Source of the DNA: an uncultured Gemmata sp.
GTDB taxonomy: Bacteria; Planctomycetota; Planctomycetia; Gemmatales; Gemmataceae
Direction: 5' to 3'
DNA: 64,000 bases
NCBI GenBank assembly: GCA_937924775.1
Contig: CALDUT010000010.1
Location: 248,001 to 312,000, forward strand
Shown here: piece after piece, positions 61,220 through 64,000 of the stretch
How positions within the stretch are numbered: the stretch's first letter is position 1
Layout of the letters: every line of letters starts with the position of its first letter
The notes under the pieces: model-generated
What the model was told of the DNA's origin: nothing
Seen by the model: only the letters and a program-made list of their open reading frames with translations
The model's database searches: none
Position numbers and translations under genes: made by a program

Positions 61220-62041
61220 TCACTCTGCGGTGATAATAGTTCCAACGTGTTCACCCGCCAATGCCCGGGTCAAAAGCCCGGGTTTCAACCCATTGATGAT
61301 CTGGACCGACCGAACATGATGGGCTTTTTGTAAATACCCTAGAACTACGCGCTCGATGACCAAATCGTTAGGGTCCATCGCGAGTAATTCTGGGGCACTA
61401 ATGCGCGGAATGAAAGTCGCGGACGGGTTCTTTTTGGGATCGTCCGTGTACAACCCGTCCTCGTCTTTGATATAAATCATGGACCGTGCCCCCAGAAATT
61501 CGGCCATGAGATACACCCCGGCGTCGGTCCGGTTCGCAGGAATGCGACCGGTTTCGGGTGGGCGTTCCCAATGGTGAAACGGGGGCATCCCCACCATTAC
61601 CGGAATACACCCGGCCCGCAGATAAAGCGGCAGCTTCTCGAATTCTTCGAAGCTCATCAAAATTCCCCCGTGTTGCGCCAATAGCATCTGCATCAGATGG
61701 GCGTTTTGCAGTGCCGTCGAAGCTCCCATGGCAGCCAGAATTCCTGTCGGCAGCCCCAATTCCAAACCCAAGCTGTAAGCATGCCGCGACCGGGTGCCGC
61801 CGCCCATACCAATCAGAAGCTGATACGATTTTGCACAGGCCGCGATCTCATCCACAAGTGGTGCAACGGCCGATCGACCCCGATCAAAGAAGCTCTGCCC
61901 CCCGACTTTGATCACGTTGACGTGGGGCAGGACGCGAATCGGCGGTCCATAAGCCGTTTCATGTAACAAATCGACGGCATCCAGCGTACCTTCGCGCAGC
62001 GGTGTGGCGATGGTTTTGCGTGCGGGAGCTTCAGGAAGCAT
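61220..62041 (-). CDS. mosB: Molybdenum storage protein beta-like subunit (amino-acid-kinase fold)
   Basis: A 273-residue protein of the UMP-kinase/amino acid kinase fold, closest by memory to the Azotobacter MoSto beta subunit. Matching stretches are VNVIKVGGQSFFDRGRSAVAPLVDEI, LLIGMGGGTRSRHAYSLGLELGLPTG, VMVGMPPFHHWERPP, ANRTDAGVYLMAEFLGARSMIYIKDEDGLYTDDPKKNP, FIPRISAPELL and ALAGEHVGTIIT. MoSto is an alpha3beta3 cage that stores hundreds of molybdate or tungstate oxides, using ATP. The HHW loop provides His residues near where MoSto binds its clusters. The start overlaps the upstream paralogue by eleven bases. UMP kinase is the main alternative, but the VGGQS...DRGR and KDEDGLYTxDPK pattern favours MoSto. 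Confidence 0.83.
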   Translation of the reverse strand: MLPEAPARKTIATPLREGTLDAVDLLHETAYGPPIRVLPHVNVIKVGGQSFFDRGRSAVAPLVDEIAACAKSYQLLIGMGGGTRSRHAYSLGLELGLPTGILAAMGASTALQNAHLMQMLLAQHGGILMSFEEFEKLPLYLRAGCIPVMVGMPPFHHWERPPETGRIPANRTDAGVYLMAEFLGARSMIYIKDEDGLYTDDPKKNPSATFIPRISAPELLAMDPNDLVIERVVLGYLQKAHHVRSVQIINGLKPGLLTRALAGEHVGTIITAE

Positions 62042-62894
62042 TGGCTAACTCCGTCGATGAGGAAGGCGCGGTGATCACCGTACCCACTGGCTCGCCCGCT
62101 AAAGCGCGGCGGAGCAGTTCGGGCTTCAGACCATTGATAATCTGAATCCGGCGGGTGTTGCGGGCATGAATCATACTTTCAAGAACCGCCCGATCGATAA
62201 TCAGCTCGGGGAAATTCCCCTCCAACACTTCCTGGGCGGTGATGGAAGGGATGAAGCGGGCTTGCCGATGGCGTTTGGGATCTGCGGAGTAAAGCCCGTC
62301 CTCATCTTTGACAAAAATCATGGACGCAGCCCCCAACACTTCACTAACCATAAACAAGCCGAAGTCTTCCCGATAATGAGGGATGCGTCGCGAACCGGTG
62401 GGGGGTTCCCAATAGTGATAGGGGGGCATACCGCTGAGAATGGGAATCATGCCCGAGGCCAACCACAGCGGCAGAACCACATAGTGATCTTTGTGGAGTA
62501 CCACCCCGCCATGCTTGGCCAAAAGCGCCTGAACCATGTAACGGTTCTGCTCATTGACGGCACCCGCGACCATGGCCAGCCCACCTGTTGGAATGCCCAA
62601 ATCCAACGCGATGTGGTAAGTGTGTCGCATCCGAGCCCCACCGCCGACACCTACGAGAATTTTGTACTTCTGCCGGCAGCGCACAATTTCCTCCAATAAT
62701 GGTACCAAGGCCGCTTTCCCACGGTCGAGGATACTGGCTCCGCCGATGTGAATCACATGAACATCAGGAAGTATGGGGAGGACCTGTTGCTGGTCGGTTG
62801 CAGTCAAAACCCGACGATCCATCAACGATTCCCGCATCAGCGGACTGCGGATGTGAGTGCGGCGACCATCGGCTTCTTGAAAGATTTCGTTCAT
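62031..62894 (-). CDS. mosA: Molybdenum storage protein-like subunit (alpha-type partner)
   Basis: A 287-residue paralogue of the next gene, with the same MoSto layout: VIHIGGASILDRGKAALVPLLEEIV, LVGVGGGARMRHTYHIALDLGIPTGG, ILSGMPPYHYWEPP, GLFMVSEVLGAASMIFVKDEDGLYSADPKRH, FIPSITAQEVL and ALAGEPVGTVIT. ATG 62894 is chosen because AAGGAGA lies five bases upstream; the frame extends to 63068 but that lies inside the upstream gene. The start overlaps the ECF-like stop (ATGA). Two different subunits in tandem fit an alpha3beta3 cage. Which is alpha is inferred only from pairing. Confidence 0.82.
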   Translation of the reverse strand: MNEIFQEADGRRTHIRSPLMRESLMDRRVLTATDQQQVLPILPDVHVIHIGGASILDRGKAALVPLLEEIVRCRQKYKILVGVGGGARMRHTYHIALDLGIPTGGLAMVAGAVNEQNRYMVQALLAKHGGVVLHKDHYVVLPLWLASGMIPILSGMPPYHYWEPPTGSRRIPHYREDFGLFMVSEVLGAASMIFVKDEDGLYSADPKRHRQARFIPSITAQEVLEGNFPELIIDRAVLESMIHARNTRRIQIINGLKPELLRRALAGEPVGTVITAPSSSTELANAS

Positions 62895-63994
62895 GGATTC
62901 TCCTTGACGGGGCCGAGCAGAATCGGTTCGGTCGTTGTGGGTGTCAGGGCATGGTCCCATTCCTTCGCTTCCGGCAGTCGATCGGTGGGAAATGCCCGCA
63001 AGACCGCAACCGTCACGAAGCCACTCAGGAAACCCGCCACCAGCGTGGGAAAGAGTTTCACACCCCACAGCATATAGACTTCAACGCGTGTACCCAGGAG
63101 TAGTAACACGAGCAATTCTGCCGCCAGTCGGGCCAGGCCGGCCAACAACCCCACTCCACAGTAAACCCAGGCTCGCAGGGGGAGCCGGCGTACCAGCGGC
63201 ATGACGAGGTCGATCAGCAAACCCGGGGCGAGGTGTTTGAGAACTTCAAAAATGCCGAACCGACCATCGCCTTGCAACAAGGCGACCACACCCATCACGG
63301 CCCCGGCGGTGGTACCGCCCCATCGGGTGTAGGTCAGACGAGCTGCCAGCAAATACAGGGGAAACAGCAACAGTGTTTTGTGCCCGCTGGCAATGGGCAC
63401 TCCCGGCAGCAGCTTCAGCATTTTGAAACCAATCATCATCAACCCGATACCGGCAATCACCGCGACGTCGTTGGCCAAACGCGGGTCCAGTGGTTCGGGC
63501 TCATCGGTTTCGAGCTGCAGACGGGCCTCGTCGAGGGCATTTCGTATGGCCACGGTGAAGAAGGCCACATCTCCGCAGATCAGCCGTCGCAATACGGTCA
63601 GAAATCCGGGGGAATGCGCATTTCCCGGTTGGCGGCGAAGCCCCCCGCTGGTGGGCGATTCCAGGCCGCTGAGTTTTGCCAAAATCAGGTTCAGCGGATA
63701 AACGAACAGCTTGGGCAGGCCGAGCGTGCGTAAACCGACTACCAAATCCGTCCGTGGACCGGTCAGACGCACAACCGCGGCAGCCAAAAGTATCGTCAGA
63801 ATCTGCAGACTCAGGAACGCCGCGAGGGCAGCACCGCCCAAGTTGATCCACACCAAGCGACCGAATATCGTCACCGCGTGCCAATCTGCTGCGATCCGTT
63901 CCTCGTCTCCAGGCACAAAAGCGTAGACAGCGAAGAGAATCGCGAATAACCATTTCAGGCGGGTGAGTGGTCGAAGCAGCCTGCGACCGGTCAC
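62891..63994 (-). CDS. ECF-transporter-like membrane protein, T component joined to S component (start may lie beyond the edge)
   Basis: At least 367 residues, from GTG 63994; the frame is still open at the window edge, so the true start may be upstream. The first part looks like an EcfT/CbiQ T component: RLKWLFAILFAVYAFVP, then SLQILTILLAAAVVRLTGPRTDLVVGLRTLGLPKLF. The later part looks like an S component: LLPGVPIASGHKTLLLFPLYLLAARL, TTAGAVMGVVALLQGD, EVLKHLAPGLLIDLVMPLV and LWGVKLFPTLVAGFLSG. No ATPase motif is present. Its stop overlaps the start of the MoSto-like gene. An uptake role for molybdate, tungstate or another metal is inferred from this pairing. Confidence 0.6.
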   Translation of the reverse strand: MTGRRLLRPLTRLKWLFAILFAVYAFVPGDEERIAADWHAVTIFGRLVWINLGGAALAAFLSLQILTILLAAAVVRLTGPRTDLVVGLRTLGLPKLFVYPLNLILAKLSGLESPTSGGLRRQPGNAHSPGFLTVLRRLICGDVAFFTVAIRNALDEARLQLETDEPEPLDPRLANDVAVIAGIGLMMIGFKMLKLLPGVPIASGHKTLLLFPLYLLAARLTYTRWGGTTAGAVMGVVALLQGDGRFGIFEVLKHLAPGLLIDLVMPLVRRLPLRAWVYCGVGLLAGLARLAAELLVLLLLGTRVEVYMLWGVKLFPTLVAGFLSGFVTVAVLRAFPTDRLPEAKEWDHALTPTTTEPILLGPVKENP

Positions 63995-64000
63995 ACCCCC

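Follow-up and report, generated by a model that had tools for sequence, protein, structure and literature searches.

A candidate oxyanion acquisition and storage operon in an uncultured Gemmata pairs MoSto-family proteins with a predicted EcfT-S-component fusion

A seven-gene operon of an uncultured Gemmata sp. combines a CsoR-like repressor, a Tup-type ABC importer, a membrane protein that is predicted to be a fusion of EcfT and an S-component, and two MoSto-family proteins. With moderate confidence, we propose that this operon acquires and stores a group-VI oxyanion (tungstate, possibly molybdate), with the fusion protein acting as a MoSto-coupled carrier or dock. The window analyzed here is a 64,000-nucleotide stretch (assembly GCA_937924775.1, contig CALDUT010000010.1, positions 248,001-312,000; G000:C10:248001-312000). 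A preliminary description had proposed that three genes at its end take up and store an oxyanion. The MoSto assignment and the S-component fold within that proposal stood, while standard ECF uptake did not, and the importer in the operon is of the Tup type.

The coordinates agree with the earlier account of two tandem paralogues overlapping by 11 bases, the first of them coupled to the membrane protein gene by an ATGA overlap (Table 1); translational coupling at this ATGA junction is probable from the sequence. The fusion gene starts 168 bases past the window edge, at an ATG that begins with the second base of the tupA stop (TGATG), and encodes a full protein of 425 aa (L002:3169-1892). The 367-aa version that begins with a GTG at 63994 is the in-window portion of this gene only. 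Past the window edge, the gene order (5' to 3') is csoR-like, tupB, tupC, tupA, fusion, mos1, and mos2, with tight junctions throughout: a gap of 6 bases between csoR and tupB, ATGA at tupB/tupC, TGATG at tupA/fusion, and then the ATGA and 11-base overlaps. It had been suggested that a cut-off upstream gene encodes a missing ECF ATPase. Reading past 64000 instead gave the CsoR-like repressor and a complete Tup-type importer; thus, the ATPase expected upstream is the TupC of that importer. The nearest named relatives, Gemmata sp. SKYG68 and an uncultured Gemmataceae bacterium, both hold all seven genes in identical order. The operon genes are under purifying selection (dN/dS of ∼0.03 to 0.17 where computable among the three Gemmataceae compared, with dS near saturation).

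Table 1. Features of the fusion-MoSto segment, in window coordinates
Feature	Position	Strand	Basis
EcfT/S-component fusion membrane protein (predicted)	62891..64000 (window part)	-	Pfam CbiQ match (E 1e-5); AlphaFold models, VIA-align
MoSto1, MoSto-family subunit, 287 aa	62031..62894	-	PDB 6h74_B (E 1.6e-67); tree; residues
MoSto2, MoSto-family subunit, 273 aa	61220..62041	-	PDB 6gu5_B (E 6.6e-79); tree; residues
ATGA overlap, fusion stop/MoSto1 start	62891..62894	-	sequence
MoSto1/MoSto2 gene overlap, 11 bases	62031..62041	-	sequence

The best substrate-specific names for TupA and TupB come from tungstate families. The TupA-like lipoprotein matched NF041772 (E 1.5e-61) and, as its best structure, the tungstate-binding protein of PDB entry 3lr1 (E 1.2e-64); the TupB-like permease matched NF041773 (E 7e-46), and TupC matched the ABC ATPase family. 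Because both TupA (208 of 400 bits) and TupB (157 of 320 bits) fall below the NCBIfam equivalog cutoffs, tungstate is the likely ion but not a certain one. Relatives of Tup carry other oxyanions as well (vanadate), and on both counts the ion is not fixed.

The operon is headed by a 98-aa protein of the CsoR/DUF156 family (PF02583, E 3e-19), encoded outside the window at L002:5682-5386. A CsoR-like protein also heads the Tup-type importer operon in two further loci (L016 and L017). Inspection by eye of the proteins from three species indicated that the first Cys ligand and the His ligand of CsoR are replaced by Ala/Pro and Tyr, respectively. Directly upstream of csoR, both the window genome and L016 contain the inverted repeat AGTATATACTGGTAC(C/T)CAGTACCC, with arms TACTGG and CCAGTA. 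The CsoR-like protein is possibly a new kind of oxyanion sensor, and a new effector is possible.

The fusion protein is rare. It was found in two of 392 planctomycetes (the present genome and G147), in 3/102 genomes of the order, in 1/385 Alphaproteobacteria (the centre genome itself), and in 2/369 Gammaproteobacteria. None was found in viral contigs or on plasmids, where MoSto occurred solely in Azospirillum. The copy in G147 (L013; G147:C398) lies at a contig end, is broken into two reading frames, and contains a stretch of unknown residues and an extended Gly tract; this break is probably an assembly problem, and the copy was left out of counts. All seven loci with readable flanks carry the fusion gene directly upstream of MoSto1-MoSto2. 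These are the window and L016, L017, L018, L019, L045, and L046, which comprise three Gemmataceae (including the window), two Alphaproteobacteria, and two Gammaproteobacteria and so span three bacterial classes. The three-gene order, for which a survey of planctomycetes had been proposed, thus recurs in other Gemmataceae and also across phyla.

ABC importer genes lie close by in all four proteobacterial loci. At L018, ModA and ModC pass curated models; similarity and gene order point to ModA/B/C at L046 and to ModB/C at L045, and L019 has a TupB/TupC-like pair ∼2 kb upstream. The neighboring importer is thus of the ModABC type in at least three of these four loci. Tup and Mod alternate as the importer beside a constant fusion-MoSto unit, and the ion handled by the fusion protein is therefore probably that of the importer. 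In L019 (Emcibacter), the fusion-MoSto genes are followed ∼2 kb downstream by a molybdenum-dependent 4-hydroxybenzoyl-CoA reductase (L019:12524-15372).

We compared these loci with 15 classical MoSto loci (Azotobacter, two Azospirillum plasmids, and 12 others), which run beta-alpha; 14 were read directly, the exception being the Azotobacter neighborhood. The fusion protein was present in none of the 15 (Fisher P = 6e-6 for the fusion-MoSto order, a value that ignores relatedness, as both sets lie on opposite sides of one branch). Nor was it found in any of the eight genomes holding classical loci, by a query that does find the fusion in G392. The fusion protein appears to travel only with its own MoSto branch. 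Several classical pairs, from Planctomycetota, Bacteroidota, and Methylococcaceae (L014, L024, L025, and L029), adjoin an ABC-2 pair and Mod genes.

By its modeled fold, the membrane protein is an EcfT protein (residues ∼1 to 225) and an S-component (residues ∼226 to 400) fused in one chain. Pfam CbiQ/EcfT matched residues 29 to 163 marginally (25.8 against a cutoff of 25), and CbiQ was also matched by four of the five fusion homologues tested. AlphaFold models were of moderate confidence, both for the fusion predicted with five homologues (pLDDT 73, pTM 0.70) and for the N-terminal half folded alone (pLDDT 70). When the latter was compared with known structures using VIA-align, the top eight were all EcfT chains (Z 9.0 to 6.8; next unrelated structure, 4.6). 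For the C-terminal half, the top 11 chains were all S-components (Z 10.3 to 13.4; unrelated proteins from Z 9.2). The best match was PanT (4rfs_S; 161 residues, root mean square deviation of 3.0), followed by ThiT, the YkoE-type 5edl, RibU, and FolT; its Z of 13.4 is to be read in light of helical bundles possibly reaching ∼13 through common arrangement alone. Because Foldseek E values were weak for both halves (>0.09), the fold assignment rests on each half ranking its expected partner first. When PDB sequences were searched by profile, the whole protein gave nothing useful, and the N-terminal half gave EcfT on top (E 0.15). The earlier reading, in which an EcfT segment precedes an S-component segment, is thus borne out by fold.

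Conservation is concentrated in the S-component half, which holds 34 of the 40 residues that are invariant across seven homologues, among them K249, H263, K264, R282, and R347; the EcfT half holds 6. The S-half also conserves charged residues at and near its probable gating loop. In its helix 1, where S-components carry an AXXXA motif, most homologues have a small-xxx-small pattern (AVIAG, AIIAG, or AVIVA) that is not strictly AXXXA. In the EcfT half, the ATPase-coupling region is replaced by a Gly-rich and often Lys/Arg-rich loop, which is most basic in the proteobacterial copies. This loop, together with the ATGA coupling of the fusion gene to MoSto1, fits the main rival to our proposal, namely, that the S-half is a sensor of the oxyanion or only tethers the MoSto cage to the membrane next to TupBC or ModBC, and that it transports nothing. 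S-component folds are known to serve as receptors, too (PMC11109136), and import is already supplied by TupABC or ModABC. However, the fusion protein has no signaling domain, and conserved charged residues at a probable gating loop are as expected of a binding site. Although it is the main rival, we regard sensing or anchoring without transport as unlikely.

In a less probable alternative, the fusion protein is a canonical ECF importer whose pumping of the oxyanion is driven by EcfA/CbiO ATPases borrowed from elsewhere in the genome, such as the CbiO encoded on contig 20. The N-terminal half has the EcfT fold, and the host genome encodes both CbiQ and a CbiO with the Q-helix. However, the Arg coupling motifs of EcfT (Ala-Arg-Gly type; PMC11109136) are missing from the window protein and occur at no conserved place in its homologues, whereas the host genome's own CbiQ, used as a control, carries two TRG motifs. 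TupC and ModC lack the ECF Q-helix motif (PMC6828968) at the Q-loop, where the CbiO of the host has NPDEQL; on this test, TupC was rejected as an ECF ATPase. No EcfA gene was seen adjoining the seven fusion loci, and the small share of invariant residues in the EcfT half also argues against a canonical importer. Because the Arg motifs and the TupC Q-helix are absent, the "ECF-type uptake" of the preliminary description is unsupported in its standard sense, and we consider borrowed ATPases improbable.

Slightly more improbable still is a role for the fusion protein in exporting or recycling surplus oxyanion out of MoSto, or in carrying a different ligand (e.g., a pterin). Several classical MoSto loci have an ABC-2 pair, often an exporter, downstream, which the fusion could replace, and known S-components bind vitamins. 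To our knowledge, however, S-components act in import, and the exchange of Tup for Mod, both of them importers of Mo/W oxyanions, speaks against an unrelated ligand.

As judged from sequence, both paralogues are MoSto-family proteins, as had been proposed. Their best PDB matches are to MoSto beta (Table 1), and both match Azotobacter MoSto alpha as well as beta, far above UMP kinases (best UMP/IPP kinase matches, about 1e-7 to 1e-8). An identity as UMP kinases, or as other enzymes of the amino-acid-kinase type, with no role in metal storage is very improbable, despite the shared amino-acid-kinase fold and the uridine kinase label on public MoSto-beta-like records, given MoSto matches that are better by >50 orders of magnitude, a tree that speaks against a UMP kinase identity (a comparison the preliminary description had singled out), two tandem copies in every locus, and Mod or Tup importers near many loci. 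On two Azospirillum plasmids (L030 and L031), MoSto beta-like genes labeled uridine kinase or uridine monophosphate kinase adjoin "molybdenum storage protein alpha."

Trees of the fusion-linked and the 15 classical loci resolved alpha, beta, MoSto1, and MoSto2 as one clade each. MoSto1 and MoSto2 together formed a third group beside alpha and beta (support 98/95, with long branches present), which makes a third MoSto lineage for the fusion-linked pair a well-supported reading of the sequences. The orthology scheme of MoSto1 as alpha and MoSto2 as beta was weakly rejected (AU P of 0.02 to 0.04); for a clade of alpha and MoSto1, the values were 0.019 with five fusion-linked loci and 0.037 with seven, again with long branches.

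All seven loci encode two different tandem subunits, each belonging to its own clade. The nucleotide-site Lys, which we take to be K45 of Azotobacter alpha and K42 of beta, is gone from MoSto1 in all seven (His takes its place in the window) and retained in MoSto2. In 7/7 loci, the residue of MoSto1 that corresponds to alpha His156 is likewise His, and a KDH motif is present, whereas the equivalents of alpha Glu129 and His140 are not kept; all three alpha residues are presumably cluster ligands. The clusters of MoSto are bound covalently by His and Glu (PMC6294228), and metal binding requires ATP (PMC6448029). As late as 2019, MoSto was described as having no known homologues (PMC6448029). In three Actinomycetospora loci (L026 to L028), MoSto alpha-like subunits are degenerate as well: the nucleotide-site Lys is lost, together with a large part of the DGxYTADP region.

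In our proposal of a MoSto-coupled carrier or dock, the CsoR-like repressor would control the operon through the inverted repeat just upstream, and TupABC would import the oxyanion using ATP. MoSto1 and MoSto2 would assemble into an alpha/beta-like cage in which, as in Azotobacter, the oxyanion is stored as a polyoxometalate at the expense of ATP, with the nucleotide lysine retained by MoSto2 and the cluster-binding histidines supplied by MoSto1. The S-half of the fusion would bind the same oxyanion through its invariant basic residues. ECF ATPases would no longer be used by this protein; because the ATPase grip is lost, we favor a solitary S-type carrier or membrane dock that feeds MoSto, in which trapping of the cargo by the ATP-consuming cage pulls the ion in. 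There is a precedent for such an arrangement in BtuM, a solitary S-component that is proposed to work without an ATPase and is encoded beside the trapping enzyme BtuR (PMC6072759). A more specific version, in which the fusion is an ECF remnant that lost its ATPases and whose transport is powered by a third-lineage MoSto cage docked at the former coupling region, is tentative. A second importer would seem superfluous if TupABC already brings the ion in, and this would favor docking, export, or sensing.

The host genome was searched for enzymes that might use the metal. In accordance with the earlier view that no nitrogenase genes are nearby, none encoding a nitrogenase-type protein was found across the whole genome, and AOR was likewise absent. 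The search, which covered nitrogenase-type proteins, AOR, and the DMSO-reductase family, found one DMSO-reductase-family MoCo enzyme and a NuoG-like protein; so small a set of candidate metal users counts against the proposal. MoSto has been regarded as a peculiarity of Azotobacter associated with nitrogenase; here, a distinct lineage of it occurs in a nitrogenase-free planctomycete, in one operon with an oxyanion importer and an EcfT-S fusion protein. A literature search, which covered few subscription papers, returned no described case of ECF with tungstate, of MoSto with planctomycetes, or of a tungstate-responsive CsoR. As the fusion-MoSto module is found in three bacterial classes, it offers a route to test how a metal oxyanion in short supply passes from the membrane to the cage and to ask whether S-components can carry inorganic oxyanions.

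Each part of the operon resembles a known system and departs from it. The pair shares with MoSto of Azotobacter vinelandii (mosA/mosB) its tandem arrangement, family, fold, and the His of alpha position 156 in MoSto1, but it represents a separate lineage in which the nucleotide-site Lys is missing from MoSto1 and which is linked to Tup and the EcfT-S fusion in a host without nitrogenase genes. The importer has adjacent tupA (lipoprotein), tupB, and tupC homologues, as in TupABC tungstate importers; it differs in scores below the curated equivalog cutoffs, in the order B-C-A, and in the CsoR-like repressor in front. That repressor matches the Pfam family of CsoR/RcnR/FrmR and is missing two of the ligands usual in CsoR, the first Cys and the His. 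ECF transporters share with the fusion the EcfT fold (with CbiQ matches in most homologues) and the S-component fold; in the fusion, however, both halves form one chain without Arg motifs or EcfA, the S-half has invariant basic residues, and the cargo is probably an oxyanion. The likeness to solitary S-components (BtuM with BtuR; solitary BioY; PMC6072759) lies in an S-fold transporter that is proposed to work without an ATPase beside a cytoplasmic trapping protein, whereas here the S-component is fused to an EcfT relic, and the trap would be a cage that uses ATP to store a metal oxyanion.
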